DNA of 64,000 nt. It comes from Chalara sp. BL73. Lineage: Eukaryota > Ascomycota > Leotiomycetes > Helotiales. How positions within the stretch are numbered: position 1 is the first letter of the stretch; each line of letters starts with the position of its first letter. The stretch lies in assembly GCA_918026815.1 (NCBI GenBank), contig CAKJVC010000012.1, positions 1,426,001 to 1,490,000 of the forward strand. The letters run 5' to 3'. The position numbers and the translations under genes are program-made. Below, piece after piece: positions 899 through 60,322 of this stretch. The notes under the pieces were generated by a model. That model saw only the letters and a program-made list of their open reading frames with translations. It was not told where the DNA came from and made no database searches.

Positions 899-3800
899 AT
901 GAGCTTTGGCTTTAGCACTGGCGATTTTCTCGCGGCAATCCAGCTGGCCAACAAGATCCGGAAAGAATTCGCAGATGCGCCGAGTCAATTCAAGGCGATT
1001 TCAGATGAGTACGTTATTTAAACGGAAGTCCGATCACCACTAACTATTATACTTAAATAGGGTTAGAAGTCTCTCGATCGTCCTTCAAGATGCCGACGTT
1101 GTCTTTCCGAATCGGGAGCTTAACAACGACCAAAAGAAAGACTTGGAAGACATCGATCAAGGTTGCCGAAATGTTCTCGACGAGCTACAACAAACACTTG
1201 ACAAAAACAGCGAGCTTAGTTCTCCTGAAAGTGGGAGTGTCGGCAAGAGAATCAAAAGAGTGTGGAAGAGGCTTAAGTGGAAGCCAGAGGATATCGACGA
1301 GCTACGGGGTCGTATTAACACCAGCATTGGCCTCTTAACCGCATTCAACGGACGACTTACTCGAGACAACGTGGTGAAGTTAGTACAGCACCAAGAAGAT
1401 CAAGGGCGTCGAGCTGTCCTCGAATGGCTCACCTCAATTGACTATGCTCCTCAGCAAAACGACTTCATTGCTCGGCGACAGGCAGGAACTGGCCAATGGC
1501 TTCTTGATTCCACAGAGTACCAATCCTGGCGAGAGACAAACAAACAGACGTTATTCTGTCCTGGAATTCCAGGCGCAGGGAAGACAATTCTCACTTCCAT
1601 TATAGTAGAAGAGCTCACTACACAGTTTTCTGACGACCCAACTATTGGCATCGCTTATATCTACTGCAATTTCCGGCGTCAGGACGAGCAGAAGATTGAC
1701 GACTTGCTCGCGAGCTTGCTAAAACAGCTAGCTGAGAGCCAGCCGTCTCTACCAAGCACTGTGAAAGAGCTTTATGATCGACATAAGACGAAACGGACGC
1801 GGCCATCCCTCGAGGAGATTTCTAGATCTCTCCAGGCCGTTACTACGCTATATTCCAGAGTCTTTCTTATCGTTGATGCACTTGATGAATGCCAAGTCTC
1901 TAATAGCTGTCGAAAAAGACTCTTATCAGAGATGTTCAGCCTTCAGGCTAATCACAGGGTGAACCTCTTTGCGACTTCAAGGTTCATACCGGAAATCACT
2001 ACGAAATTCCAGGGGAACATATCACTCGAGATTCGTGCAAGTAAGGAGGATATAGGGAGATACTTGGAAACCCACATGAGCCACCTAACGCCATTCGATG
2101 ACTGGAACCAGCAGTTACGAGATGAGATCAAGGTCGAAATATCGGACACAGTAGATGGCATGTATGTTCTAGGTATTATTTAAACGAGGTATCTTTACTA
2201 ACGAGCCTATAGGTTTCTCTTAGCACAGATCTACCTCAGTTCACTCGACGATAAGACTACACCAAGAGCAGTTAGGAGCGCATTAAGCCACTTCCGGAGG
2301 CAGAACCCAGGATCGAGCAAAGACCAGAAGCGCGAAGTACTAGACGAGGCGTACAAGGATGTCATGGAAAGAATTAATACACAACAACCAGGCTTTCGTC
2401 GACTTGCCGAAAAGGTTCTATCGTGGATCACTTGCGCTAGGAGGCCTTTAACTACGTCGGAACTTCAACATGCTCTCGCTGTAGTAGTTGGTAACTCTAA
2501 GCTTGATGAAGATAATCTTGAGAGAACTGAAAGAATGATCTCAGTATGTGCTGGGTTAGTTACAATCGACGAAGAAAGTAAGATTATTCGATTAGTCCAC
2601 TATACAACACAAGAGTACTTCGAACGAACGCAAAGGCAATGGTTCCCTAGTGCACAGACTAATATCACGACAATCTGCGTTTCGTACCTCTCATTTGACC
2701 AATTTGAGAGTGGAATTTGCCGAAACGACAAGGAGTTTGAACAACGGCTTCGATTAAACAAGCTATACGACTACGCAGCACATAATTGGGGGCATCATGC
2801 TCGAGTGGTACCCACGTTAGCCTTTGAAGTCATTAGCTTTCTTAAGAGAAAGGCTCATATGGAGGCATCGATCCAAACGCTACTAGCCAAGAAGTTGTAC
2901 TCGTCACACACAGAGTATAGCCAAGGATTCACGAAGGATATGACAGGACTACATTTGGCAGCATACTTTAGGATTAAGACTATCGTAAAGCTGCTGCTCG
3001 AGCAAGGCGCCGAGATCGAGGCGAGGGATAGCAATGGCCAAACGCCGCTGTCGTGGGCTGCTGAGTTCGGGCACGAGGCTACCGTAAAACTGCTGCTCGA
3101 GCAAAGCGCCAAGATCGAGACGAAGGATAACGATGGCCGGACGCCGCTGTCATGGGCTGCTGAGTTCGGGAGCGAGGCTACCATGAAACTGCTGCTCGAG
3201 CAAGGCGCCGAGATCGAGGCGAGAGATAACAATAGCCAAACGCCGCTGTTGTGGGCTGCTGAGTACGGGAGCGAGGCTACTGTAAAGCTGCTGCTCGAGC
3301 AAGGCGCCGAGATCGAGACGAAAGATAACAATAGCCGGACGCCGCTGTTATGGGCTGCTAAGAACGGGCACAAGGCTACCGTGAAGCTGCTGCTCGAGCA
3401 TGGCGCCGAAATCGAGACGAAGGGTAACGATAGCCGGACGCCGCTGTTGTGGGCTGCTGGGTTCGGGCATGAGGCTACCGTGAAGCTACTGCTCAAGCAA
3501 GGCGCCGAGATCGAGACGAAAGATAACAATAGCCGAACGCCGCTGTTGTGGGCTACTTGGTACGGGTACGGGGGCGAGGCTACCGTGAAGCTACTGCTCG
3601 AGCAAGGTGCCGGGATTGAGGCGAGAGATAACAATGGCCAAACGCCGCTGTCGTGGGCCGCCGAGTACGGGCACAAGGCTACCGTGAAGTTGCTGCTCGA
3701 GCAAGGCGCCGAAATCGAGGCGAAAGATAACAATAGCCGGACGCCACTGTCGTGGGCTGCTGAGTTCGGGAGCGAGGCTACCGTGAAGCTGCTGCTCAAG

Positions 3801-5054
3801 CAAGGCGCCGAGATCGAGACGAAAGATAACGATGGCCGGACACCGCTGTCATGGGCTGCTGAGTTCGGGAGCGAGGCTACCGTGAAGCTACTGCTCGAGC
3901 AAGGCGCCGAAATCGAGACGAAGGATAACAATGGCAAGACGCCGCTATCATGGGCCGCCAAGCGCGGGTATATGGCTACCGTGAAGTTGCTGCTCGAGCA
4001 AGGCACCGGAATCGAGACGAAAGATAGCAATGGCCAGATGCCACTGTTATGGGCTGCTGAGTACGGGCACGAGACTACCGTGAAGCTGCTGCTCGAGCAA
4101 GGCGCCGAGATCGAGACGAAAAATAACAATGGCCAGACGCCGCTGTCATGGGCTGCTGGGTTCGGGCACAAGGCTACTATGAAGCTACTGCTCGAGCAAA
4201 GCGCCGAGATCGAGACGAAAGATAACAATAGCCGGACGCCGCTGTCATGGGCTGCTGAGTACGGGCACGAGGCCACCGTGAAGTTGTTACTCGAGCAAGG
4301 CGCCGAAATTGAGACGAAAGATAACAATAGCCGGACGCCACTGTCATGGGCTGCTGAGTACGGGCACAAGGCTACCGTGAAGTTGCTGCTCGAGCAAGGC
4401 GCCGAGATCGAGACGAAAGATAACAATAGCCGGACGCCACTGTCATGGGCTGCTGAGTACGGGCACAAGGCTACCGTGAAGCTACTGCTCGAGCAAGGCT
4501 CCGATGTCGAAGCAGAGGATAACGTTAGTCGGACGCCGTTGCTGTACGCGGCTAAAAATGGAAATAAAGCCATTATTAGGCTCCTGCTCGCCACAAACCG
4601 AGTTGACGTTGACTCCAAGGACTATTACGATTCGACACCCTTATCAATCTCAGCAAGGATGGGACACAAAGATGTAGTTGCATTTCTCCTAACCAAAAGT
4701 TATGCGTTGAATGTCCAAGACAGTCTCGGTCGGACTCCTTTATATTGGGCAAAACGAACCGGACATCCCGAAATTTCCGACCTTCTCCTTGAAAAGTGCA
4801 AAGAAAATGGTATGATTGCTCAACAAGACGACCCGCCTATTATGGCAGTTTCAGTCCTTGCTGGTAAAAACTCTGGATATTGTGACGTTTGCATGCTAGA
4901 TATCTTAGATGAAGACACTTACTATTATTGCAAAGTCTGTAGTGGCGGGTATTTTTGGATCTGTAAAGATTGTTTCGAAATAAAGGCCCACTGTCTCGAT
5001 AAGTCCCATAGTTTCGGCAAAGAAATATCTCAAGCAAGTACGAGGCAGTGGTGA
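899..5054 (+). CDS. NLR1: NACHT-ankyrin NLR with C-terminal ZZ-like zinc finger
   Basis: Gene model join(899..1008,1061..2161,2213..5054), 4053 nt, 1350 aa. Intron 1 has GTACGT...TAG with branch CTAAC; intron 2 has GTATGT...TAG with branch CTAAC. Both joins are in phase. The N-terminus [20 protein letters not shown] is a motif common on fungal NACHT proteins. Walker A GIPGAGKT lies at about residues 205-212 and the Walker B-like FLIVDALDE at about 305-313. From about residue 648 come 18-19 ankyrin repeats, 15 of them almost identical 33-mers ([21 protein letters not shown] type). Residues about 1294-1336 hold paired CxxC motifs (CDVC, CKVC, CKDC) and a HCLDKSH end, typical of a ZZ finger. By family knowledge this is a STAND-type signal protein. 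Intact and probably functional; the trigger is unknown. Confidence 0.92.
2985..4502 (+). repeat. 99-bp near-identical ankyrin-coding repeats of NLR1
   Basis: About 15 head-to-tail 99-bp units encode 33-residue ankyrin repeats. Differences cluster at a few codons: EF/EY/KN/GF before the G, H or S after it, E/T in IEA/IET, and NS/DG/NG before the TPL. One unit (about 3541-3590) carries a six-base insertion coding GG. High identity between units indicates recent duplication or concerted evolution. Confidence 0.9.
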
Positions 5055-27092: not shown

Positions 27093-29558
27093 ATGGATTC
27101 GAAGCCGTCCGATGCCAGGATTACGATGGAGCTTGACAGCGGCCTCAGCGGAAGCGGGAATGTAACGAAAGGCCGACCGGAAGACACTGTTCCCAGCGTG
27201 ATTTGGCTAGGCCATTTCAATAGCCTTCCACCTCTCCCTGAATATTGTTCTACTGTAGGATATAGAGCATTGGATCTCGAGTCCAACGACTTGTCTCCCC
27301 ATACGCATCGCTACCACCAGACCAAGGCACATGGCTTGCACTCTGAGAAGATGCTTTGCAGTTTCTGCGACCAACTAGATATCTCCGCGGTACGAAATGA
27401 AGGACCCCTTCGCTTCCGAGACAATTACCTGGACGTCGTTCGAACAGCTCTCCGGTGCAGATTGTGTTCATTCATCGCGCAAGGCATTTACGGCAGAACA
27501 GCTTACTGGATTAGAAAAGAAGAACACGAATCGGGGGGCAAGGGCTTTCCATTATTTCTATGGATACAGGGTGAAACGCTGTGCATATCTATTGGTCGAT
27601 CTTCTAAGTCCTGCACCACGGAGATAGAAGACGTGGACGATGATGATGACGAGGATCTCTACACTAACAAGGTTCGACTCGTGCTCGATACTGGTAAGCA
27701 AAACCTCCGCTACAGCGATTTTGCGCTGGGGCATAGGAATATAGTGATTATGTTAATCTTATGTGGCTGATTGAATCGTATCTGCCTAGACGAAGACACT
27801 AGGCCGAGGTGGGGTATGGCTGATTTGTCTCTTAAAACGAGAAACGAATCACACCGTGGAGACGACCCGCACAGACTTCTTCTTGCTCTGAATAAGTCGA
27901 TGCGGCGGGCAATCAACTTCCCTACGTGCGAAGCCTGTGCCGACGAGGGATTCCGTTTGACTGAGACTCCTTCGCAGTGGCTCGATGGCGGCCAAATACT
28001 AGATTCAGTCCTCCCAGATCGTGTACTAGAGGTTACCGAGGGACCATCGTTTGCCCACCAATTTCTAGTACGCCTGCATGAGACTAAGGGCCTGCAGCGC
28101 GGTTATTATACCGCTCTCAGTCATCGTTGGGGAGGGAAAGTGACGCTGAAGACGACTAAGAGTACCATGACGTCAAGATTACATGGCTTCAAACTTCAGA
28201 GCTTGCCAAAGACTTTTCGTGATGCGGTCATAGTAACCAAGGCGCTGGGGATCAGCTACATCTGGATCGACTCCCTCTGCATCATTCAAGACAGCAGACA
28301 GGATTGGATGGAGCAGTCGGCCAAGATGGGTGCCATCTACGAGAACTCGACATTCACCATCGCCGCCCATTCTGCAAGCCAATGCAATGAAGGGTTTCTG
28401 TGGAGGAGCCAAGTACCACGTGCGTTACGCATCGAGCCTCGACATGGCGGCCCTCCCTTCTCAATTGTGATACCGAAGGTGGAACGCAATGAGCTGTTCG
28501 CTCGGTTCAAGGACAGCGAGATTAGCAATCGGGCCTGGATTATGCAAGAACTTACCCTCTCCCCAAGGATTCTTCACTTCGTCGAGGACCGCCTGCTGTG
28601 GGAATGCACTCACACTGGGCCGAAGGTGGGAGACATCGAGCCCGAGACATCTGCTGGCGCCCTGCGAGATGCAGTAAAAGGGTACAAGAACGCATCGCAC
28701 AAGGTCACATCAGTGCATGACCGCATTGTCAACGAATCATGGCTAGACTTGGTCCATCAGTACAGCCAGTACCAGATGACCAAGACTAGCAATAAGTTGT
28801 TCGCCATTGCCGGGATCGCGGAAGTCTGGTCGCGGCAGCAGTCGCATGAGGATCACAGAGTCTACCACTGCGGAGTGTTTGAGAAAGACATCAGGAGATC
28901 TCTACTCTGGTACGCAATGGAGAATTTGACGCGATATCCAGACCGAGCGCCATCGTGGTCATGGGTAAGCGTTGACGGCGTCGTTCAATTCAAAGAGCTT
29001 GAAATAGTCGATTCAATCAGGCAGCTCGCGACAGTCATCGAGATTTGCCACCGGGACTACGAGCCCGTTGAGAGCCCAGATGGGCTTGGGAGGTTGCTTG
29101 GCCTGCTCGACTTGGGTAAACTCCGACGACTCCATCAGGGGTCAGCGGGGGCAGCCAAGCCGCGATGTCGCATCACCCTGGAGGCGCCAGTTATTCGAAT
29201 TTCTGGCAAAGTGAAAATCCACCAAAAGAAGCCTTATGAGAGTTCTAGCGCAGCATACTGGGTCGCCGTCGACAGCAAGGACGAAGTGCAGATCGGGAGT
29301 GATGTCCGTTGCGTTTTCGACGACGATTGCTTGCCGGGCGGGAAGAACCGGATAGAGGACGGCCAGACTGTCGGCGTATGTCTTGTGGCGCTGTCAGGCG
29401 TACGGAAGAATAAGGAGATAAGCAGCGCCTGGTGTGTCATTGTTCATCCGCTTCCGGGAGAAGAGGCATTCTTCACGAGACATGGGATTGCCCGCCTCAA
29501 GAACAAGGCGTTGATCGACTCGGCGATTCAGGAACCCAACATTATCAGTCTAGTATGA
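27093..29558 (+). CDS. HET gene 2: heterokaryon-incompatibility domain protein
   Basis: Gene model join(27093..27693,27790..29558), intron 96 bp (GTAAGC...CTAG), 2370 nt, 789 aa. The N-terminal third carries paired cysteines (MLCSFCDQ and LRCRLCSF), a common HET-associated region. The HET domain runs about residues 306-455: YTALSHRWGG, LPKTFRDAVIVTKALG, YIWIDSLCIIQDSRQDW, and IYENSTFTIAAHSA. NRAWIMQELTLSPRILHF follows at the usual spacing. The C-terminal 250 residues contain a TRYPDRAPSWSWVSVDG block typical of this HET subclass. Intact. Predicted effector of incompatibility or cell death (family knowledge). Confidence 0.93.
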
Positions 29559-35325: not shown

Positions 35326-38300
35326 TTATAAGATCTGTACCGCATCGTCTTGACCATCAAAGAGTATGAAACTCTGTTGGATCCAGCCCATTCCAACTCT
35401 TTCGAATGATCTGCATTCCGGGTGCGTCGTGCATTCTGCAACAAGGAGTACGTAATATTTCTGTTCACCACCCTCTCGTTTAGTCTCTCTCCCTATTATA
35501 GCACACTGTATTTCTGTTGAGGGCTTTCCTGGTTTATTGTCAAAACACAAATGCCCGTTATCGTCCTGGTCGCGGTCAAACCATAGATGCCCGACTTCGT
35601 TGTCGTTCTCATCGCTTATAACATGCTTCGGGCCATTGGATTTGATCTTGCAATATTGATACCGTTTCACTCGAGCTTTCAAGACATAACCGTCATTCTC
35701 CAGGCTGCTGGCCGCGTTGCTCGCCTTGTCCTCCAATTTAACGCGCATATCCCACTCTACCTCCACGCCTTTAGTGTCCAAATACTCAATCGGCCCGTGA
35801 TATGCCATCCAAGTCCACAACGGAAGCGCCTGACCAGCCGCGTCAGATATCCTCTCCTTGGAAATTTTCTGGGGCCGTTGCCATAGGAGACTTCTGTGAA
35901 GGTAGCATTCAAAAATACCATATCTGATTTTTGAGTGGAAAGCTTTGCCCAATTCCGTGGCTAGTGAGTCGATCGCAACGGGCCTGTCTGTCTCCTTTGT
36001 AAGGCTTAAGGTGGAGTATTCCGCAAACAGATCTTGAAAAAGCTTAATTTGAGCCGCCGAATGACGCTTCGTAATAGAATAAGGAAATTCTGGGTCACTT
36101 CGGAAAGAAAATTTTGGGCTAATTTTTATTAGAAATTGGCAAGCTCCTTAATAAGTAATTGGTAGTAATAAGAAAAGCGAAATATAAAAACAAAGCGGTG
36201 CGTTTAAGTTAAAGACTTACTTGCGCATATAAGTAAGCGTTTCGCAACGCACCCCACCGCCACACTCCCAGTATGTTTGCCTTTTCGTGAAAAATATTGT
36301 TCGGCGTGATAAGGCGCGTTCCTGTAATACCCATGCCCGCGTATTCAAGATACCTTTCTGCACGTCGCCAAGGAAATCATCAATAGATGTGCAAACATAG
36401 ACTTTGCCATTGATAGACTTGGGCACTGTTACGTATTGCAAATCTGACTCCCCAATCGGCCGGTTGAGAAATCCTTTGGTTGAGTTTTCGGCAGAAGTGG
36501 CAGCAATCGTGCAATAAGCGTTCCTGAAAACCGTTCCCATTTTCTTAGATTCAGTTCTCCAATCTTCATCGTCATCTTGAATAATACATAGCGAGTCGAT
36601 CCAGAGGTATCGCTTACCGATTTCTCGGACGACTCTGATTGCATTTTGAAATGTTGCTGGCAATTCGGCGACTAGGAATCCTTGAGTTCTCATCTCCTTA
36701 TTTTCGCGCGTGGTACACCATCTGTGTTTCTGTTCCTCTGTTAGCTTGCCCCAGCAATGGGATAGAGCTACGTAGTGTATTCCTGATCCCTCCGTGGGCG
36801 AGATGATCTTGTCTGTCGAGATGAGGCACACGATATCGGGGATAATTTTGTCTTCTACATCAATGACCCTGGTTGGCAAAGCACCACCGGGGTTAGGACA
36901 GCATCCGCCGTTTCTCTCGCATTCGCCATCGTCACAAAGTCGAAGCCACTCCTTGATCAACCGGAAATGACTCGGGCTACCTGACTGCAGGAATACGGGC
37001 AGTCCCAGTGGCATTTGTTTCAAGCGTCCAGAACCATCTTTAGGCACTTCTGAATTTAGTAGAGTCAATTCCAGGCTCTTTAACAAATGGAGCAGTCTCA
37101 CACACCTGGCACAGCGCAGACCCTTATATAGGATCGGGCTTCAAGAAGTGGCGTCTCGGCCTTATCACGGCATTTGGAGAGGATTTGACAGAGGGCACAG
37201 CTGTTATCTTGATCATGCAACGAAGAGAGGGTGGTCGCCAGGTTGATTTTGCAACAGCCATCGCATAATCTTGAAGAGTATTCATAAGGTGACAGAAGTT
37301 TTTCTTGGAGCAAGTATGCTGAGAATGCATCATGATCCGGGTAGATCCATTCATCCTTGGCATTCTGGATTATCCGAGGTCAGCATTACCAAATATATTG
37401 TATCCAGGACAACTCACAAACTAGTAGAATAAAACAAATAGGGTCAGCCGTTTTATCGGTTCTACAAGTTATACGTACTTCCTGAAATATAGTGTCAGCA
37501 AACACATCGCTTAATCTTGTCACTGTAGCAAAACTTACATCCTATATTACCAAAAACAACCAAAGTCAGCAAACCTATCGCGTTGTTTTGTTAGCATAAC
37601 CAAACTTACCAGCTATATCACCAAAAATAACCAAAGTCAGCAAACCTATTGTTTTGTTTCCTTAATATAGCATAACTTACCCACTATATCACCAAAAACA
37701 ACTGAAGTCAGTAAATTTATTGCTTTGTTTTGTTAACATGACAAAACTTACTTCCTATATTACCAACAACAACTAAAGTCAGCAAATTTATTGCTTTGTT
37801 TCGTTAGTATAATAAAACTTACATACTATATTACCAAAACAACTAAAGTCAGCAAACTTATCGCTTTGTTTTGTTAGTATAGCAAAACTTACATACTATA
37901 TTACCAAAAACAACCAAAGTCAGCAAAATTATTGCTTTGTTTTGTTAGTAGAGCAAAACTTACTCGCTATTACCAAAAACGACTAAAGTCAGCAAACTTA
38001 TTGTTTTGTTCTGTTGGCATAGCAAAATTTACCCGCTATATCACCAAAAACAAACAAAGTCAGCAAACTAATTGTTTTGTTTTGTTAGTATAGCAAAATT
38101 TACATTCTATATCACCAAAAACAACCAAAGTCAGCAAGCTTATTGTTTTGTTTCGTTTGTATAATAAAACTTACGCGCTATATCACCAAAAAAAACTGAA
38201 GTCAGCAAATTTATTGTTTTGTTTCATTAGCATAACAAAACCTACGCGCTATATCACCAAAAACAATTGAAGTCAGCAAACCTATCGTTTTGTTTTGTTA

Positions 38301-39928
38301 GTGTAACAAAACTTACATCCTATATAACCAAAAACAACCAAAATCAGCAAACTTATTGTTTTGTTTTGTTAGCATAATAAAACTTACCCGCTATATCACC
38401 AAAAACACCCAAAGTCAGCAAACTCATCGCTTTGTTTTATTAGTATAGCAAAACTTACCCGCTATATCACCCAAAACAACCAAAGTCAGCAAACGTATTG
38501 CTTTGTTTTGTTAGTATAACAAAACTTACTAACTATACGACCAAAGACAGCTGAAGTCAGCAAACTTATCGTTTTGTTTTGTTAGTATAATAAAACTTAC
38601 TTCCTATATCACCAAAAACAATTGAAGTTAGCAAACCTATTGCTTTTTTTTGTTAGCATAACAAACTTACCTGCTATATCACCAAAAACAACCAAAGTCA
38701 GCAAACTAATTGTTTTGTTTTGTTAGCATAACAAAACTTACCAACTATATGACCCAAAATAACCAAAGTCAGCAAGCTTATCGCGTTGTTTCGTTAGCAT
38801 AACAAAACTTACATACTATATCACCAAAAACAACTAAAGTCAGCAAACTTATCGCTTTGTTTCGTTGACATAACAAAACCTACTTGCTGTATTATCAAAA
38901 CCAACCAAAGTCAGCAAACTTATCGTTTTATTTCGTTTGTATAATAAAACTTACGCGCTATATTACCAAAAACAACTGAAGTCAGTAAAATTATTGCTTT
39001 GTTTTGTTAATGTAGCAAAACTTACTTCCTATATTACCAAAAACAACCAAAGTCAGTAAACTTATCGCTTTGTTTTGTTAGTGTAACAAAACTTACTTCC
39101 TATATCAACAAAAACAACCAAAATCAGCAAACTTATTGTTTTGTTTTGTAAGCATAACAAAACTTGCATTCTATATTACCAAAAACAACCAAAGTCAGCA
39201 AACTTATTGTTTTGCTTTATTTGTATAGTAAAACTTACGCGCTATATTACCAAAAACAACCAAAGTCAGCAGACTTATTGCTTTTGTTTTGTTAGTACAA
39301 CAAAACTTACTTCCTATATCACCAAAAACAATCAAAATTAGTAAACTTATTGCTTTGTTTCGTTAGTATAACAAAACTTACTTCCTATATTACCAAAAAC
39401 AACCAAAGTCAGCAAACTTATCGCTTTGTTTGGTGGTATAATAAAACTTACTTTCTATATTACCAAAAATAACCAAAGTCAGCAAACTTATCGCTTTGTT
39501 TTGTTAGTACTGTATAGCAAAACTTACTAACTATAGTACCAAAGACAACCAAAATCAGCAACCTATCGCTTTGTTTTGTTAGCATCATGAGAAACTTACT
39601 TGCTATATCACCAAAACAACCAAAGTTAGCAAAATTGTCGCTTTGTTTGGTTAGCATAACAAAACTTACATCCTATATAACCAAAACAACCGAAGTCAGC
39701 AAACCCATCGCTTTGTTTTGTTAGCACAACAAACTTACCCGCTATATCATCAAAAACAACCAAAGTCAGCAAACCTATCGCATTGTTTTGTTAGCATAGC
39801 ATAGCAAAACTTACTTCCTGTCAATATCCTTATTAGTAACAGATAACACCTCAGATCACAGCACTTACAGAAAAATAGTCACCATGATCCTTCTTACTAT
39901 CGGAAGTGCAAGACGGTTTGGTCGCCAT
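35326..39928 (-). CDS. HET gene 4 with 35 consecutive single-codon exons
   Basis: Minus-strand model of 39 exons: exon 1 39928..39869 (ATG, 20 codons, MATKPSCTSDSKKDHGDYFS), 35 exons of exactly 3 nt (listed under the array), then 37364..37106, 37049..36221 and 36118..35326. The CDS is 2046 nt, 681 aa, with no stop. The late introns are ordinary: 56 bp (GTGTGT, branch ACTAAA, TTCAG) and 102 bp (GTAAGT...TTAG). The body starts NAKDEWIYPDHDAFSAYL, has paired cysteines (LCDGCC, SCALC), WLRLCDDGEC, and the HET domain at about residues 233-385 (YVALSHCWGKL, LPATFQNAIRVVREIG, YLWIDSLCIIQDDDEDW, TRAWVLQERALS). The one-codon exons would add an Arg/Glu-rich helical segment, residues 21-55. Without the array the HET body has no ATG, because its reading frame opens at an acceptor (37365-37367). 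The HET body is certain; inclusion of the micro-exons in mRNA is inferred from sequence only. Confidence 0.85.
37421..39814 (-). repeat. tandem intron array: about 71-bp units of one codon plus one intron
   Basis: Plus-strand coordinates of the last base of each three-base exon, with the minus-strand codon: 39817 GAA, 39741 CGG, 39672 GAT, 39602 CAA, 39530 TTA, 39454 AAA, 39384 GAA, 39313 GAA, 39241 CGC, 39170 AAT, 39099 GAA, 39028 GAA, 38957 CGC, 38886 CAA, 38815 TAT, 38744 TTG, 38673 CAG, 38603 GAA, 38532 TTA, 38461 CGG, 38390 CGG, 38319 GAT, 38248 CGC, 38177 CGC, 38106 AAT, 38035 CGG, 37966 CGA, 37895 TAT, 37825 TAT, 37754 GAA, 37683 TGG, 37612 CTG, 37541 GAT, 37481 GAA, 37420 TTT. Introns are mostly 66-69 bp (range 51-73). 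Of 36 donors, 29 are GTAAGT and the rest GTAAAT, GTAGGT, GTACGT, GTGAGT or GCAAGT. All 36 acceptors are YAG and all 36 have an RCTRAY branch 14-25 nt upstream. Confidence 0.9.
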
Positions 39929-46145: not shown

Positions 46146-48564
46146 ATGCGTCTACATGAGGCAGCGAGAACGGGGGACCTATCCCTCATAGAGACGCTAC
46201 TCGGCAATGGCGAAGACATTAATGGTAAGGATGAAAAGGGCCGGACGGCACTGTCGTTGGCCGCAGAGAAGGAGAATGAGTGGCGGAATGAGAGTGTGGT
46301 GAGTCAGCTGCTTGAGAAAGAGGGCATTAATGTGAACTCCAGGGACAATGACGGCCGGACGGCACTGCTATGGGCTGCAGAGAACGGAAATGGGTGGACG
46401 ATGGAGAAGCTGCTTAAAAATAGCGCCATTAACGTGAACTCCAAGGACAATAACGGCCGGACGGCACTGTCGTTGGCCGCAGAGAAAGGAACTAAGTGGG
46501 CGGCGGAGAAGCTGCTCAAAAATATCGGCATTGACGTAAGCTCTAACGAAGTAGAACATTTAGCGGAGCTGCTACGTAAAGAGGACGGAGTTGACGTGAA
46601 TTCTGAGAAAATTAAAAAAGTAGTAGACTTATTGCTCGGGAAAGAAGCCATTGACCTGAACTCCAAGGACAATGACGGCCGGACGGCGCTGTCGTGGGCG
46701 GCAGAGAAAGATAATGAAAAAGTAGTAGGACAGCTGCTTGAGAAAGAAGGCATTGACGTGAACTCCAAGGACAATAACGGCCGGACAGCACTGTCGTGGG
46801 TTGCAGAGAATGGGAATGAGTGGGCGGTGGAGAAGCTGCTCAACAATAGCAACATTGAGGTGAACTCCAAGGATAATGACGGCCAGACGGCGCTGTTGTG
46901 GGCCATAGAGAAGAGGCACGTAGCGATAGTGAATCTGCTTTCCAAAAGAGACAGCACCACCCTACATATTGCAATTCAACGCAAGAATCACGATGTTATT
47001 GCGTTGCTGCTGAAAGGGTCTGCGGATACGAAGGATGTCATGGCGGAAAGTTGGCGCCACGCATATGGGCAGCAACCGTCAGATATTTTGCTGCTGTCAG
47101 GAGGAGAGGGGCAACAGAAATCCGTGTGCCGCATTGCGGAACGAGAAATTCAACACGAATTAGTGCACTGGTCAGCCGAAACTGGGACAAGAAGATCTCT
47201 CTTGTGCGTCGTTTTATTCCTTTTATCTCGTGAAGAAACTCAACTAATTTCCCAAGGCTAGTATTGGACCTCTTTCCATGGCAAAATGACTTGATTCCCG
47301 GCTGGAAGGAGGTCCTCACTTTGCAACGCGGCGAATTGCGCTATTCCCAGAAACCAATTAACGGACTTGGCATTTGCTTCTGTGTTGCTGTCTGGTTTCC
47401 CGCCAGACAGGATCCAGACCAGAAACACGGAAATATGCCTGGCTGGGTCAAACGCGCAATAGCGTGGACGATGATACCGCCCAAGAACCCTAATGGCGGG
47501 CTATGGAGGTCGATAAGCCACTTGAGCACACTGCCAAACGGTTGGATTCCAGACGACGGTGTTGACTTCTTCAAGCAGCTTATACTCTGCTTAAAAGATA
47601 GGTGGCTCATGGAATGTAACCTGACCGAGGGAGATCAGGCTAAACGTGTGAGTTCACCCGGTGCTAATGTTAATCTTAGACATATATCCACCTTACCAAT
47701 CTTGTTTAATCGACTAATTAAATAATATAGCGTGGCGACCAACTCCGTCGGAAAGGGGAAAGCCCCGACCTCATACGTAGCCTAGCAGAAGATGCTCAGA
47801 CGTTGGCTGATCATCATACCTTCTTACAAGACCAAGTCGCCACTGCTAAGAAGTTTGTGAAAGAGAGCGGACGTTATCATGAGGATAACCTGAAAGATCT
47901 TCAGGGCGTGATAGATGGCTTTGCAGACGACATTAATCATCGTATAAAACAACTAGACCAAACGATAAGGGACCTTTTGCAATTTGTGAGCATATTAACC
48001 ATTATTTCTAACAAATTTATCGGAGCTGACCCTCTGCAGGAGTTTGCCTGGGTTTCGATCAATGAGGCACACAGATCTATCAGTATTGCAACAAGCATGA
48101 AACGTCTCAGTTGGATTACTGTAAGATTTCGCTTGGCTTGTTACATGTTTGACCGAAGCTGATATTCCCAGTTCATCTTCCTGCCGGCAATGTTTGCTTC
48201 GGTAAGGCTCCGCAACATATTTGAGGATGCACATTATAGCCACAGCTGCTAATGGGGTGATTTCGCACACAGAGCCTATTTGGCATGAACGTCGATTTAT
48301 TGAAAGACAACCCCGATTGGCGTTGGTATGTCTTTTTCGGGGGAGGCATTTTGACAATCACTTTTGTGATATGGGCCATCTTCAAGTTCAATCCTGTTCG
48401 TGGCCGGCTCCTCAAGAGTGGCACCCCTTTGTCGTTACTAACAAATGATACAGGATATCGAATTATGGATCGAGCGCGAAGCGGATAAAATGCTGCAAAT
48501 GATGGGTCGGAAGCGAACCCGAAGAGCGGCTGCTGTGCCATCCGCTGGTACCAATCTTGCCTGA
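46146..48564 (+). CDS. ankyrin-repeat protein with C-terminal CorA-like transporter domain
   Basis: Seven exons: 46146..47203, 47257..47647, 47731..47985, 48040..48120, 48172..48201, 48273..48395, 48454..48564. The CDS is 2049 nt, 682 aa; every join is in frame with YAG or AAG acceptors and CTRAY branch sites. The last donor is GTTCGT, slightly unusual. Residues 1-300 are ankyrin repeats (RTALSLAAEKEN, VNSKDNNGRTALSWAAE), locally near-identical. The middle has PGWVKRAIAWTMIPPKNP. A long helix with TLADHHTFLQDQVATAKKF and IKQLDQTIRDLLQF leads to two membrane helices: FIFLPAMFASSLFGMNVDLL, containing the CorA signature GMN, and WYVFFGGGILTITFVIWAIF. Known family: fungal ankyrin proteins with a CorA-like Mg2+ channel end. 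Probably a membrane protein; ion transport is unproven. Confidence 0.85.
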
Positions 48565-49661: not shown

Positions 49662-52600
49662 TTATCGTCTAATTCCAGCGTTGTAATGTGAGCTCCCGGG
49701 CTTGTTTTGCTTAATCGAGGATAGAGTGGATAAAGTCCACATAGTCAATTCGTGTTCTGGTCCTAGCACTTTCTCCCGTCCTGTTAAAGCTCTTGTCAAA
49801 AACTCTAAAGCTTTGTCATATTGCTGGAGATAGTTGTAAACAGTTCCAATTTGGGAAAGAGTCCACAAAGTCGATTTGTGTTCTGGTCCTAATACTTTCT
49901 CCCGCCCTGTTAATGATTTTGTCAAGAACTTTAAAGCTTTGTCATATTGCTGGAGATTGCCATAAACAGTTCCAATTTGGAAAAGAGTCCACAAAGTCGA
50001 TTTGTGTTCTGGTCCTAGCACTTTCTCCTGTCCTGTTAAAGCTTTTGTTAAAAACTCTAAAGCTTTGTTATATTGCCGGAGATGGCTGTAAACAGTCCCA
50101 ATTTGGGAAAGAGTCCACAAAGTCGATTTGTGTTCTGGTCCTAGCACTTTCTCCCATCCTGTTAAAGCTCTTGTTAAAAACTCTAAAGCTTTGTCATATT
50201 GCTGGAGATGGTCGTAAACAGGTCCAATTTGGGAAAGAGTCCACAGAGAATTTTCATGTTCTGGTCCTAACACTTTTTTCTGTCCTGTTAAAGATTTTGT
50301 CAAGAACTTTAAAGACTTGTCATATTGCTGGAGATGGCCGTAAACAGTTCCAACTCGGAAAAGAGTCCACAAAGTCGATTCGTGTTCTGGTCCTAGCACT
50401 TTCTCCTGTCCTGTTAAAGCTCTTGTCAAGAACTCTAAAGCCTTGTTATATTGTTGGAGACAACTATAAGTAGTTCCAATATGGGAAAGAGTACACAGAG
50501 TATCTTCATGTTCTGGTCCTAACACTTTCTCCCACCCTGCTAGGGCATCGCTGTACGTCTCGAGAGCCTGTTTGTACTGATCGAGATCGGAGTAGGTGGC
50601 ACCAATTAACTCTAGAACACGAAATTTCACTTCCACCTCCTTTGTTTTTATCTTCTTAAAGGCGGCAGAGTAAATCTCAAGAGCCTGTTCAAATTTATGG
50701 ACTTTCCTGTAGAAATAACCGATCGGTAGGAGTACGTATATCGAAATGGCCGTGGCCTTCTGTAGTATGATCCGGAACAGGATTTGTAAAGGGTCGGTGA
50801 GTCGTTTGACTTTCTGAAGATGAAACTGCATTCTGAGAAAGAGATCAACTTGTAACCGCAGCGATAGCGGTGCCTCATTCTGAAGCATTTGTAGAATCGG
50901 TGAAATGTCCGTTGGTCCGTCTGAACTCTCAACTGCTCGAAAATCCGCAACTTGAGCGTTAGTTAACACGACTGTACTACCCAAAATACTAAGGAAAAGT
51001 CGCAGTTGCTCAGTGCGCAAATTATTTTGTCCATATTGTCGTTCTCGTTTTACAAGTTCATCCTGTAGGCGAACCGAAACCTTGCGTAAAAAAAGTTTCT
51101 CCGAGTGCCAGCCCTTGTCTAGCCAAGAGACAAATTTCTCAAACTCATTTACCTGAGAATGTAAAGACTCATCTTCAACTATATTCATAGCTGAGAGTTC
51201 TAGCCAAGATATCCATCGGTCCGAATTTAGAAACCTGTCAATCTTTTCAAGAATAAACGCGGACGGTAAGCCAGACTGATATATATGAGTAAACAAGTAT
51301 CTAGACGCGTAGGCCAGGAAGTAGTGGTGTTTGACAGGCTCAGGAGAGATGTCCCAGTCGTGTAATGGAGAACCATAGTCACTTGTTTCAAGGTACTCTA
51401 TACAAGCAGCGCCAAGCAAACGATGAGCATCTTCTAAAGACACCCGAAAAACCATTATTTCGCGGCTCTGTGGCCATTGACTCTCAGGTCTGATTAGAAA
51501 CTCCTTAATTGAAAAGTGTACCAGCCGCAAGCGATCATCTGCGATATTGATAAGATCACCGCAGACATCTAGGATTCTGTGATCCAATTGTAGAATGATA
51601 TGGTCCTCAAAGGAAAGCTCTTTGCGTGCGGAATTGGACGCGGAGTCTATGGCAAGTAAATGCTGGAACTCGCTCAGACTCAATGGACGTTGTGAGACAA
51701 TAATAAATGCCATGACTTTTCGAGCAAAGTCTAAATCGATCTTCTCCAGCCTGTGAACAAGTCTCAATAAAATATCTTCGTAGGCTGCTTCAAGATCGCG
51801 TGGCAAGTTATGTAGTCTTTCCGACGCATCAGCTACCGCAAGCGACTTACTCAGTAGCCTAAGCATGAGCTTAACCCAGAGAAAATTTCCATCTGACTTC
51901 TCCCGAAGTGTTCTAGAAACAATGTCTCGCAATTTCGGAAGACTAAGGATTTTAGACCCTGATATTCCGGTTCTAATAATTGTATCAATATCGCCCTCCG
52001 TCAAAGCAGGATCTATCTCGAGTCTATGGATAGAGTGGATTTCTTGAAATGCGTGAGGACGGCCGAGCAAAATAAAACGAAAATTGGAACGAGCATCCAG
52101 GAAGCTAAAAAGCTTTTGGAACAATTCTTGGATAGTACCCCTGCTCTCGTCGACTCCATCGACTATGCAGTAAACTGGCTTTGTGACATACGCGGCTATC
52201 CCTTTAAAGGCTACCCACAACTCAGAAGTTACAGGTTGACCTCGCAACATCAAGCTGGAAAGAGTATCGAGAGCTTCTTTTCGTGGGGCAAATTCCAATA
52301 ATTGCCATAGAAGCGAACGAATTAGTCCACACAATTTCTGCTGGCTGGGCTCCATGTCAGAGAAGGCGAAGTACAAAGCATTAATGTTGCTCTTCCACAT
52401 GCGGTCGACAATAGAGGAAGCCAGAGTGCTTTTGCCGCAACCGTGAAGACCATAGATGCACATAATCCTATCTGAAGCCGACGAGTGTTGGCCAGTATTC
52501 CATTTCGTGAACTTTGCATTTGTCCAGATCCAGTCACAGGTCCCCGGAAGCCTACTTTGTACTTGATCTTGCTGTATCGCTCGAACATTTGGTGGTTTCA

Positions 52601-55142: not shown

Positions 55143-58100
55143 ATGGCCCCAGAAAGTCGAGACCATTACACCGTTGGATGGATTGCTGCTCTTCCGTTAG
55201 AGCTAGCGGCGGCAACTGCGATGCTTGATGAGGAACATCCGAGGCCCGTTGATTTCGAGAAGCCTCCCGCCGATCAAAATGCCTACACATGGGGTCGCAT
55301 TAGCGGGCACAACGTGGTCATTGCGTCGCTTCCGGCAGGAGTTTATGGCGAAACTTCTGCTGCGGCTACTGCGATGTCTATGATTCACTCCTTTCCCTAC
55401 ATTCGAGTAGGGCTTATGGTGGGCATTGGCGCTGCAATTTCAAGGCCGGAGCAAGGCCGCGACATTCGGCTCGGTGATATTATCGTCAGCCAACCTGATG
55501 GACGGACCGGAGGAGTTCTGCAGTACGACCTCAGAAAGGCAAAGCCTGGGGACAAACAGGAACTGAAAGGCTCGCTGAACATGCCGCCACAGGTTCTTCT
55601 TACAACATTAGCGAAGCTTCAAGCATTGCATGAACGCTTACCATCTAAAGTGCCCAACTTTCTGGAAAAGATGGTAAAAAGTAATCCTCAAATGGCTAAA
55701 TCAAAGCCTAGAAAGGCAAGCTATTTATATCAAGGAAATGAAAATGATCGGCTATTCAAAGCAGAATATGGCCACGTTGGTGGCTTCAATTGCAAGGACT
55801 GCGATTCTCAGCAAGAGGTGTCACGTGAGAACCGGGACTCGACTGAACCCGAGATCCACTATGGTATTATTGCTTCTGGGAATACGCTAGTAAAAGATGC
55901 CGCTACTCGGGACTTAATCCTGCAGGGCACTGGGGAGGATTGCATTTGCTTAGAGATGGAAGCGGCTGGGCTGATGAACAATTTCCCTTGTCTCGTCATC
56001 CGGGGAATTTGCGACTATGCTGACTCGCACAAGAATGACCGCTGGCAAAGGTATGCTGCTGCAACGGCTGCCGCATATGCAAAGGAGTTTCTGGAGGTTA
56101 TTCCGGTCGAAGACCTAGAAAAGACACAGAATGCGGTTGATGTTTTGAAAGAGGGTTAGTTTTTATTTTAATCTTCAAGACCTAGAGTAACATTCTCAGA
56201 AGTAATAAAAGTTAAAGAAAAGTTAAATGATATTGACAATGCCACTAAAGAGACCATAAATAGTCTTCATAGACTACGCCTTAATAGTCTACAGCAGAAG
56301 GTTATCGAGTGGCTATCTCCTCCTGATCCCTCAACAAATTATGCTCGAGCATTGGGGCAACGACACGAGGGTTCAGGCAAGTGGTTCCTCCAAAGTACAG
56401 AGTTTGTTGAGTGGAAAACGATGTCAAATTCTTTTCTATGGCTTTATGGCATCCTCGGATGCGGGAAGACAATCCTTAGTGCTACTATTATTGAGGAACT
56501 CGGGAAATCCACCTCCCACTCTCAGCTTCTCTACTTCTATTTTGACTTCAACGACACTAGCAAGCAACCACTTGAGGAGATGGTCCGCTCGCTCATCGCT
56601 CAACTCTACGAAATGCGGGAAGATACTCGGAAGCAGTTAGATTCACTTTTTTCCTCTTGCAAGGGAAGACAGCCAACTAGCGAATCACTGTGTGCGAGTC
56701 TCCTACACATGATACAACAAGTTGGCGAAGTCTATATTATCCTGGATGCCCTTGACGAATGTAGCACAAGGGGCGGGGCTAAAGGATTGCTCTCATGGAT
56801 GAAAGGCCTTTTAAGCCCTGAGCGAAAACACGTCCACCTCCTTGTTACAAGTCGCCCAGAAGAAGATATTAAATCGGCATTAAACGGTATCGGACGTCAA
56901 GTGCCTATTCGGGGCGACCTTGTTGATCGCGACATATATGCGTATATTCATGCGAGAGTTAGAGAGGATGACGGCCTAAAAAGATGGCGATCGCGACCGG
57001 ATGTCCAGGAAAAGATTGAAACCCAACTCAAGGAACAGTCTAAAGGAATGTAAGAAATATGAAATTCTTCACAGTTTCGGTTATCTTCTATAAACATGTG
57101 CTAAGATGTTACAGGTTTCGGTGGACTGCATGCCAGCTGGATGCTCTTGAAAAGTGTTTTGATCCTCAAATGCTCCAACACGCTCTCGGATCCTTACCAG
57201 AGACATTGGACGAAACATATGATCGAATCTTACTCGGAATTCCTCAGGCATCTAAGCAAAAGGCTATCCGGATTCTGCAATTCTTGGCATTCTCCGAACG
57301 GCCATTGCGCGTTGAAGAAGCTGTTGATGCAATAATAGTAGAGCCTGAAGGTAATCCTCGGTTTGATCCCAGCAACAGGATGCCTGACCCAATGGAGATT
57401 TCAAAATACTGCTCAAGCTTAGTAGTTGTTGGGGATAGACAGCTTCAACTAGCACACTTCTCAGTCAAAGAATATTTGGTGTCTAACCGGCTCCCCAAGC
57501 ATTACCGTCAAAGTTTTCAGGAAACGGAGGCTAAGGTATTAATTGTGAGTGTTTGCGTAGCATACCTGTTGCACTTAGACCAAGACCTTCCGGTAGAGAA
57601 AATTAAAGCAAGTTTCCATTTTGCGCACTATTGCGCGCAATACTGGATGCACCACGCAGCAGCAGCAACCAGAGGCAATGACAAGGTATTCCAAAACCTC
57701 CTTACAGAGTTTTTCCTGGACCGCAAATGGCCTTATACAAACTGCTATCGGCTTTATTCCCCAGATCAGCCTTGGAACGGTGATACAGCTAAAGAAATAC
57801 CCGCACCGATATATTATGCATCACTTGGGGATTTAAAAGATGTAGTGTGGCGTCTGATAGAACGTGATGACGATATAAACGCTCAAGGTGGATACTACGG
57901 CAATGCTCTTCAAGCGGCTTCTGATAGAGGACACAAAAATATTGTCCAGGTGCTGCTCGACAAAGGCGCCGACGTCAATGCTCAAGGCGGATTATACGGC
58001 AATGCTCTTGAAGCAGCTTCTGCAATAGGGCACAAAAATATTGTTCACATGCTGCTCGACGAAAACGCTGACGTCAATGCTCAAGGCGGATACTACGGAA

Positions 58101-60322
58101 ATGCTCTTCAAGCTGCTTCTGATAAAGGACACAAAAATATCGTCCAGATGCTGCTCGACAAAGGCGCCGACGTCAATGCTCAAGGCGGAGAGTACGGCAA
58201 TGCCCTCCAAGCTGCTTCTGCAGAAGGGTACGAAAACATCGTCCAGATTCTGCTTGATAAAAGCACCGACGTCAATGCTCAAGGCGGATACTACGGCAAT
58301 GCTCTTCATGCTGCTTCTGATAAAGGGCACAAAAATATTGTCCAGATGCTGCTCGACAAAGGCGCCGATGTCAATGCTCAAGGCGGATTATACGGCAATG
58401 CTCAAGGTGGATTTTACAGCAATGCTCGAGGCGGATTATACAGCAATGCTCTTCATGCTGCTTCTGATGGAGGGCACGAAAATATCGTCCAGATGCTGCT
58501 CGACAAAGGCGCTGACGTCAATGCTCAAGGCGGATTATACGGCAATGCACTTTATGCTGCTTCTGCAAAAGGGTACAAAAACATTGTCCAAATGCTGCTT
58601 AACAAAGGCGCTGACGTCAATGCTCAAGGCGGATACTACGGAAATGCTCTTCAAGCTGCTTCTGATAAAGGACACAAAAACATTGTCCACATGCTGCTCG
58701 ACAAAGGCGCCGACGCTAATGCTCAAGGCGGAGAGTACGGAAATGCTCTTCAAGCTGCTTCTGCAAAAGGCCACGAAAACATCGTCCAGATGCTGCTTAA
58801 TAAAAGCACTGACGTCAATGCTCAAGGCGGAAAATATAGCAATGCTCTTCAAGCTGCTTCTGCAAAAGGGTACAAAAACATTGTCCAGATGCTGCTCGAC
58901 AAAAGCAGCGACGTCAATGCTCAAGGCGGATTATACGGCAATGCTCTTCATGCTGCTTCTGATAGAGGGCACGAAAATATCGTCCAGATGCTGCTAGACA
59001 AAAGGGCCGATGTCAATGCTCAGGGCGGAGAGTACGGCAATGCTCTTCAAGCTGCTTCTGCAAAAGGGTACAAAAACATTGTCCAAATGCTGCTCGACAA
59101 AGGCGCCGATGTCAATGCTCAAGGCGGATTATACAGGAATGCACTTCATGCTGCTTCTGATGGAGGGCACGAAAACATTGTCCAGATTCTGCTTGATAAA
59201 GGTGCCGACACCAATGCTATGGGCAGACAATACAGCAATGCTCTCGAAGCAGCTTCTGGAAAGGGGCACGACAACATTGTCCACATGCTACTCGACAAGG
59301 GCGCCGACGCCAATGCTCAAGGCGGATACTACAGCAATGCTCTTCAAGCTGCTTCTGCACAAGGGCACAAAAATATCGTCCAGATGCTGCTTGACAAAGG
59401 CGCCGACGTCAATGCTCAAGGCGGATTATACAGCAATACTCTTTATGCTGCTTCTGATAGAGGACACGAAAACATTGTCCAGATGCTGCTCAACAAAGGC
59501 GCCGACGTCAATGCTCAGGGCGGATTATACGGCAATGCCCTCCAAGCTGCTTCTGCAGAAGGCCACAAAAATATTGTCCACATGCTGCTCGACAAAGGCG
59601 CCGACGTCAATGCTCAAGGCGGAGAGTATGGAAATGCTCTTCAAGCTGCTTCTGCACAAGGGCACAAAAATATCGTCCAGATGCTGCTCGACAAAGACGC
59701 CGACGTCAATGCTCAAGGCGGAGAGTACAGCAATGCTCTTGAAGCAGCTTCTGATGGAGGGCACGAAAACGTCGTCCAGATGCTGCTCGACAAAGGCGCC
59801 GACGTCAATGCTCAAAGCGGATACTACGGAAATGCTCTTCATGCTGCTTCTGATAGAGGGCACGAAAGCATTGTCCAGATGCTGCTTGACAAAGGCGCCG
59901 ACGTCAATACTCAAGGCGGAGAGTACGGCAATGCTCTTCAAGCTGCTTCTGCAAAAGGCCACGAAAACATTGTTCACATGCTGCTAGACAAAAGCGCCGA
60001 CATTAATGCTCAAGGCGGATACTACGGAAATGCTCTTCAAGCTGCTTCCGTAAAAGGGCACAAAAATATAGTTCAGATACTGCTCGACAAAGGCGCCGAT
60101 TCTAATGCTCGGGGCGGAAGATACGGCAATGCTCTTCAAGCTGCTTCTGCAAAAGGCCACGAAAACATTGTCCAGATGCTGCTCGACAAAGGCGCCGAAG
60201 TCAATGCTCAAGGCGGAAAATACGGCAATGCTCTTCAAGCTGCTTCTGATAGAGGGCATAAAGACATCGTCCAGATGCTGCTTGACAAAGGTGTCGATGT
60301 CAAAAAGGTGTCACGGTACTAG
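55143..60322 (+). CDS. NLR3: PNP_UDP-NACHT-ankyrin protein
   Basis: Gene model join(55143..56154,56200..57049,57115..60322); introns of 45 and 65 bp (GTTAGT...TCAG, GTAAGA...ACAG), in phase; 5070 nt, 1689 aa. The start at 55143 (MAPESRDHYTVGWIAALPLE) matches PNP-NLR family starts. PNP_UDP about residues 8-325 (VGIGAAIS, CLEMEAAGLMNNFPCLVIRG). Walker A GILGCGKT at about 421-428 and IILDALDECS near 525. A WH-like region (LPETLDETYDRILLGI) follows. From about residue 880 there are 24 ankyrin repeats of 33 residues, consensus YGNALQAASxxGHxNIVQML and LDKGADVNAQGG. Intact. Paralogue of NLR2 in the N-terminal half. Confidence 0.93.
57870..60300 (+). repeat. 99-bp near-identical ankyrin-coding repeats of NLR3 (24 units)
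   Basis: Units differ mainly at two places: the residue between GG and Y (Y, L, E, K, Q, R or F) and the pair after AAS (DR, DK, DG, AK, AE, AQ, AI, GK, VK), plus K/E/D before N-I-V. One unit (about 58380-58450) contains two extra 24-bp copies coding the GGLYGNAQ / GGFYSNAR / GGLYSNAL series, keeping frame. Confidence 0.9.

Follow-up and report, generated by a model that had tools for sequence, protein, structure and literature searches.

Seven HET-domain loci of Chalara sp. BL73 with hypervariable arrays of predicted one-codon exons

This report deals with a stretch of 64,000 nucleotides of the helotialean ascomycete Chalara sp. BL73 (contig CAKJVC010000012.1, positions 1,426,001 to 1,490,000; here termed the window) and with a HET-domain gene located on its minus strand. 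Between the first exon of this gene and the exons of its HET-containing body a repetitive region is found that probably represents 35 consecutive one-codon exons, and that is likely to encode a hypervariable peptide region whose codons are changed by recombination between introns. A preliminary description had been restricted to this array. It missed the larger finding, namely that the window array is one of seven loci of this genome with different hypervariable arrays. The anatomy of the arrays, their restriction to HET loci in a strict scan and several signs of constraint on coding and on splicing can be read directly from the DNA.

Arrays of putative one-codon exons at seven HET loci

On the minus strand the window array (Table 1) consists of 35 triplets in phase 0, none of them a stop codon, each bordered by a YAG acceptor on its 5' side and by a GTAAGT-like donor on its 3' side, exactly as had been described before. 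The triplets follow each other in the order GAA CGG GAT CAA ... GAT GAA TTT, and their joined translation ERDQLKEERNEERQYLQELRRDRRNRRYYEWLDEF is stop-free and contains 21 charged residues out of 35, which agrees with the earlier count. All 36 introns that flank the triplets are 51-73 nt long and end with CAG or TAG; at the level of sequence, all 35 triplets are microexons, i.e., exons of <=30 nt with canonical flanking splice sites. The regularity proposed at first has to be relaxed in some respects. The donors are GTAAGT or near forms that include one GCAAGT and two GTAAAT, and the branch motif is not uniform: of the 34 introns located between codons, 26 contain its strict form (CTRAY without a later AG), compared with 1.4 after shuffling. 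Tandem Repeats Finder (TRF) calls the array as 32.5 copies of a 71-bp unit at positions 37494-39798.

The ATG exon can be joined in frame to the HET body via the array. With the last acceptor at 36118 the predicted coding sequence comprises 60 + 105 + 259 + 829 + 793 = 2046 nt (681 aa), so that the previously given length could be recomputed. The body carries two ordinary introns, and its last junction is a prediction only, since the frame also remains long, at 674, 643 and 636 aa, if one of three other acceptors is used (36097, 36004 and 35983, respectively). Assignment as a HET-domain gene follows from the match of the body with PF06985 (E 8.7e-34), and the first body exon shows a DxW...D(N)xFA-like motif that is seen again in relatives. 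The regions bordering the array have counterparts elsewhere. A homologous first exon occurs in the copies at two further array loci of this genome, C59 and C67, and is kept in the proteins P0002 of Fusarium oxysporum and P0008 of Cudoniella. The first intron has its counterpart in C59 and, judged by eye, a more distant one in C67, and the last intron before the body has counterparts in both.

Three GTAAGT donors linked via AG plus 3 nt served as the pattern for a scan of the whole genome (58.7 Mb on 199 contigs). This strict query gave 88 matches, compared with none in the reversed control, and all 88 fall inside seven loci: C9 (the window), C3, C7, C22, C59, C67 and C127. Single links with a gap of 3 nt were found 111 times versus 12 times in the control and, among the places listed, all but two (C11 and C65) lie inside the same loci. 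For the two other gaps compared, 4 and 6 nt, single links showed no genome-wide excess (5 versus 15 and 7 versus 15 in the control, respectively). Two further patterns were set aside as by-products of repeats: a gap-6 chain, which is a CTGACC motif inside the C67 introns, and a repeat rich in GTAG next to C59 (L013 8038-8314, gaps 3 and 11).

The strict chain scan breaks arrays at degenerate sites and recovered only four of the seven units of C3 and seven of the 11 units of C127; the lists of units were read with looser signals, which take in one ATAAGT donor (C59), one TAA acceptor (C127) and AAG acceptors (C59, C3). Read in this way, the loci contain 35 (C9), 17 (C59), 42 (C67), 51 (C7), 11 (C127), 7 (C22) and 7 (C3) one-codon units, altogether 170. 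A second chain of one-codon exons was not found in the window by the strict chain scan.

A HET domain is present at all seven loci. A tblastn search with the HET exon of the window gave matches at six of them, including the window itself, and C22 has a Pfam HET match (E 9.4e-13) in a neighbouring frame. At C22, matches with HET, NPHP3_N/NACHT and ankyrin follow each other in successive reading frames of one strand and may be assigned to a single apparent HET-NACHT-ankyrin gene. Its array, VDLWVWW, is flanked by ...GSVVNYWYKL and TPLLRAVWKGNEAIVRLLLKKGA and lies inside an ankyrin repeat, at a position which we take to be that of the exposed loop. At C3 the array is found at the junction of a protein kinase-HET fusion (kinase motifs recognized by eye). 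A search with this junction returned two Fusarium proteins labelled as kinase and HET that are 30-33% identical, from which the array status is not clear.

The genome contains 149 HET matches, with single genes in some cases split into several of them, so that arrays at seven loci are a minority feature among HET genes. In 12 of 13 other HET regions (L036-L048, with upstream coverage sometimes incomplete) no chain was detected. The thirteenth contains a three-link chain (TTT CCC AAA; L038 2400-2262, minus strand), which is located on C156 in the vicinity of another HET gene and is possibly a very small array. When the window array was used as query in a DNA search, array-type sequence was retrieved only at C9 and C59, which is a lower bound.

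Signs of constraint on codons and introns, and layout of the window

In 32 aligned cassettes of the window, each consisting of one codon and a complete intron, the three codon columns have 1.84, 1.35 and 1.89 bits, in comparison with a mean of 0.36 bits in the 68 intron columns. Pairwise differences between introns comprise 3795 transitions versus 1014 transversions, those between codons 426 transitions versus 592 transversions; the codon differences are not transition-rich, as is expected of saturated sites. In each of the six repetitive arrays, at most one intron column has an entropy as high as that of the first or second codon position. Together with the specificity of the 3-nt link in the genome-wide scans, the entropies of the window array show more than chance.

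No stop codon occurs among the 170 array triplets, whereas 9.0 are expected if the codon columns are shuffled independently within each array, and none of 20000 such shuffles was free of stops. If distinct triplets are counted only once per array (n = 71), 3.7 stops are expected (P = 0.007).

The pattern is most clearly seen in C67. In its 44 closest intron pairs the introns differ at 3.4% of sites but codon positions 1, 2 and 3 at 62, 75 and 15%, respectively. Introns 28 and 37 of this array are identical over 71 nt and yet are located between ATT-GCT and GAT-CGT; similarly, introns 15 and 31 of C7 are identical over 68 nt and lie between GAT-AAA and TAT-GAA. Codons of C67 whose amino acid allows NNT end with T in 38 of 39 cases, and the only other codons are three GAA. 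The entropy of codon positions 1 and 2 is above that of all 71 intron columns, while 16 of these 71 columns reach that of position 3. Selection on the amino acid fits C67 better than a mutation hotspot, because a hotspot should affect every one of the three codon positions. In C7 the third base follows a weaker pattern (T in 32 of 38 cases, with four of the six exceptions in its non-repetitive end), the codons that are unable to end with T being GAA, TGG and AAA only.

The strongest case for splicing, as far as can be judged from sequence, is C3. Its exon 1 is open in phase 0, its body is open in frame 0, and between them seven predicted one-codon exons are found (NQYAAPP), four of them detected by the strict chain scan and three by looser signals. 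The C3 introns have an identity of 0.502 versus 0.515 after interior shuffling, and the last 12 introns of C7 0.572 versus 0.540. Since these introns are as unlike each other as shuffled ones, or nearly so, repetition fails to explain the 3-nt spacing in C3 and in the C7 end; at C3 the spacing would instead be maintained by function. CTRAY without a later AG is present in 10 of the 12 C7 introns (0.9 expected from shuffles) and in three of six C3 introns (0.3 in shuffles). Of the six repetitive arrays, five also have more such sites than the shuffles, although copies of one intron are non-independent. A donor other than GT/GC or an acceptor other than AG is found in the introns between codons only in C59 (ATAAGT) and C127 (TAA), once each, and among the six loci matched by tblastn these are the two with stops inside the HET match. 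Folding of the intron RNA, for six arrays with at most 12 introns from each, revealed no special structure, with mean z from -0.8 to +0.4. The exact 3-nt spacing, confined to HET loci in the strict scan, the lack of stops in 170 triplets, the codon-position pattern (clear in C67 but not in the window), the non-repetitive arrays that retain the spacing and a loss of splice sites restricted to broken copies thus support a chain of one-codon exons, which was the core of the preliminary description.

The bodies of C9 and C59 share 82% DNA identity, but the interior codons of their arrays differ in number and order. C9, C59 and C67 have the first triplet GAA and the last triplets GAA TTT in common, in each case beside unique introns, with 35, 17 and 42 units, respectively. 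At six of the seven loci the introns resemble each other and differ from those of the other loci. Identity is 0.815 within C9 and 0.752 between C9 and C59, and the C67 introns are 0.846 identical among each other and 0.61-0.64 identical with those of C9 and C59 (values between arrays refer to the first 12 introns of each). In C7, cassettes 12-14 and 22-24 (counting from 0) represent a block duplication with the codons CCT CGT CTC and an intron identity of 0.96. The linkage between codon and intron in the window is weak: introns with the same 3' triplet are slightly more alike (P about 0.02), those with the same 5' triplet are not (P about 0.5). A simple recent history of local duplication is unsupported for the window array, which shows weak linkage of this kind and no steady decay of identity with distance. 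One intron of the C7 array (L035 5493-5823) has 331 nt and contains an insertion ending TTGTAACA...TGTTACAA, perhaps a small mobile element.

Table 1. Predicted structure of the HET gene and further features of the window (positions within the window)
Feature	Position	Strand	Description
Exon 1	39869..39928	-	ATG start, 20 codons, MATKPSCTSDSKKDHGDYFS, ends in phase 0; read from sequence
First intron	39818..39868	-	51 nt, unique sequence, not array type
Array	37418..39817	-	35 predicted one-codon exons with 34 introns of 57-73 nt between them
Array ends	39817-39815; 37481-37479, 37420-37418	-	First triplet GAA; last two triplets GAA, TTT
Last intron before body	37365..37417	-	53 nt, GTGAGT...CAG, unique sequence
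Body exon 1	37106..37364	-	NAKDEWIYPDHDAF..., starts in phase 0
Body exon 2	36221..37049	-	HET domain PF06985 at about 36319-36774
Body exon 3 with stop codon	35326..36118	-	Acceptor selected for the longest among four frames that run to this stop
Second HET-domain match	about 28101-28610	+	C9:1454101-1454610
Tandem arrays	2980-4504, 46306-46903, 57881-60303		Units of 99-102 bp, ankyrin-like consensus (by eye)
Tandem array	49734-50539		Units of 126 bp, 6.3 copies

Proposed mechanism and alternative explanations

We propose that every cassette is spliced, in order, in the manner of recursive splicing. This style of splicing is suggested because each acceptor has the next donor three bases later. 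The resulting peptide would be a variable recognition surface of an allorecognition or cell-death protein, positioned before the DxW motif or inside an ankyrin repeat; the HET domain and the ankyrin-repeat case point to such a role. Through recombination between near-identical introns whole codons would be gained, lost or exchanged, and a crossover or gene conversion within introns would keep both splicing and frame because the unit is a whole codon framed by a complete intron. Repetition would sit in the DNA, where recombination needs it, and the protein would be non-repetitive. Diversifying selection on the amino acid would keep the codon differences during homogenization of the introns. Splicing in RNA, the role in recognition and recombination as the engine are what we infer here from the sequence. 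We are also inclined, by a small degree, to regard these arrays as a new way of writing protein, in which a hypervariable immune peptide is encoded with one codon per exon and recombination, possibly also splicing choice, edits single residues in a frame-safe way within a family of HET and NOD-like receptor (NLR) genes.

Several points weigh against this proposal. It is drawn from DNA sequence and from one genome. Continuity of the frame proves little, because a direct splice from exon 1 to the body is also in frame. Exons of 3 nt are hard to recognize, and 35 of them in succession are without precedent in the literature read. Counts inside repetitive arrays are non-independent, and if the arrays are tested one by one, the lack of stops is significant only in C9 (P 0.003) and C59 (P 0.028). 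The clean codon-position signature comes from C67, less clearly from C7 and not from the window, since the arrays of the window, C59 and C127 have no third-position T pattern and vary at the third codon position about as much as at the first. None of six C22 introns passes the strict branch-site rule, because CAG directly follows their CTGAC. Finally, adjacent cassettes of the window are not more alike than distant ones, no steady fall of identity along the array is seen, and recent local duplication could be demonstrated for one block only, that of C7.

The diversity might also be made in RNA, by skipping cassettes randomly or under control, and one gene would then give rise to many in-frame peptides. 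This is compatible with the mechanism proposed above, and because a cassette is a whole codon, the frame would be preserved whichever later acceptor a donor is joined with. We nevertheless consider it rather doubtful, as the tests run here gave no sign of skipping and ordered splicing seems to be important, given that splice sites are lost in broken copies only.

According to another scenario an ordinary exon was invaded by introns, copies of one intron having been inserted between the existing codons of a charged helix by an introner-like or intron-copying process. Such an origin would fit the identical introns between different codons and the finding that adjacent units are no more alike than distant ones. 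It may also fit the Penicillium relatives P0053 and P0059, which carry a charged segment in the corresponding position, directly ahead of the DxW motif. It is unlikely, however, in view of the C9 and C59 bodies, which are so similar and yet enclose arrays with different interior codons and different numbers of them, and of intron families that differ between the loci. Moreover, a synonymous third base that is nearly always T, as in C67, is unexpected for an ordinary exon, the block duplication of C7 carries its codons along, and array-type DNA was found only at C9 and C59 (a lower bound).

That the array is a noncoding satellite inside one big intron, with exon 1 spliced directly to the body and the triplets untranslated, would agree with the 71-bp tandem repeat and with a frame that survives skipping of everything, but it is quite improbable, as a functionless satellite would have neither a constrained 3-nt site nor a frame, whereas here only 3-nt links (among gaps 3, 4 and 6) exceed the control and the strict ones are confined to HET loci, stops are lacking in all 170 triplets, C3 and the C7 end retain exact one-codon exons though their introns are no longer repeats, saturated codon positions lie between identical introns, and C67 has its peculiar codon pattern.

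Traces in other fungi and comparison with known systems

Relatives of the window protein were examined among the best 120 of 6044 matches. The Diaporthe protein P0006 holds LLTLVVFGDIESKSWCADETERY, which matches translated array intron of C59 (tblastn E 3e-8), and this segment back-translates to acceptor, triplet, GTAAGT and intron. A query with the array-like region of P0006 matched only this protein itself and no further proteins of this kind. In P0001 from Dactylonectria an odd N-terminal segment ends in an apparent translated copy of the intron preceding the last codon (E 7e-4 versus C67). Residues 19-44 of this protein read EPTVEMEEMIDEWMEMRDEWAMIGMT, and VSLA... comes next, which looks like a spliced stretch of about 26 array codons with the following donor in translation. 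The segment could reflect transcript evidence; to judge from its sequence it may represent about 26 spliced array codons or otherwise an ordinary exon. P0005 of Fusarium solani has similar pieces (LLTLVV and LLTMVIFGDI, recognized by eye), and its tblastn match spans only the segment end. In Leptodontidium P0015 a first-exon-like start is followed by KEVS (residues 20-23), which fits AAG GAA GTAAGT, i.e., the same first array codon and donor. With such traces in proteins (not DNA) of other fungi the arrays look older than this species. Their occurrence apparently extends beyond a single fungal order, and gene prediction seems to misread them. If one-codon exons are indeed used, this would explain the truncated-looking or intron-containing predicted N-termini of several related HET proteins.

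Introners and other bursts of intron gain lead to many near-identical introns dispersed over many genes. Near-identical introns are common to both, but the arrays described here sit in HET loci and differ between loci, and near-identical introns dispersed over unrelated genes were not found, neither by the DNA search with the window array (a lower bound) nor by the strict scan. In recursive splicing an acceptor is followed directly or almost directly by a donor. The micro-exon genes of Schistosoma are not known to have one codon per exon or tandem codon-intron cassettes.

The arrays differ from recursive splicing and from stwintrons (PMC6616335) in that acceptor and donor are separated by three bases that are read as a codon, up to 51 successive times. 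Single 3-nt microexons are known, e.g., from homothorax of Drosophila, and demonstrate that one-codon exons can be spliced and translated; unlike the arrays they are described as single in their genes, with no tandem arrays or hypervariable codons reported (PMC7392893). The Schistosoma genes, which are described as highly variable (PMC10399815), share with the arrays many short exons (3-81 bp) but differ by mixed exon lengths and introns of up to 5 kb (PMC10526429). In filamentous fungi functional microexons had not been described before that of Xlr2 from Trichoderma, according to its authors; it is a microexon of a filamentous fungus as well, but one regulated microexon in a transcription-factor gene (PMC11121469). 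Within open-licence PubMed Central papers (preprints and other papers being outside this scope) no array of one-codon exons was found, only single microexons of 3 nt, micro-exon genes and HET-NLR repeats that are hypervariable, and the earlier statement that no described gene with such a run is known still holds for this literature.

If confirmed by transcripts, the genes presented here would be the most finely divided ones found described, with the intron as the repeat that drives variation and a single codon as exon. They would allow recognition diversity without frameshifts, the peptide being changed one amino acid at a time, and would offer a test of how the spliceosome handles runs of 3-nt exons. 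By analogy, their homogenized repeats with defined hypervariable sites resemble those of the HNWD NLRs het-d and het-e of Podospora, which are likewise allorecognition genes with concerted repeats and hypervariable sites under diversifying selection (PMC12222747). In HNWD proteins, however, the repeat is a translated WD40 unit (PMC12222747), whereas in the arrays described here the intron is repeated and translation would be limited to one codon per unit.

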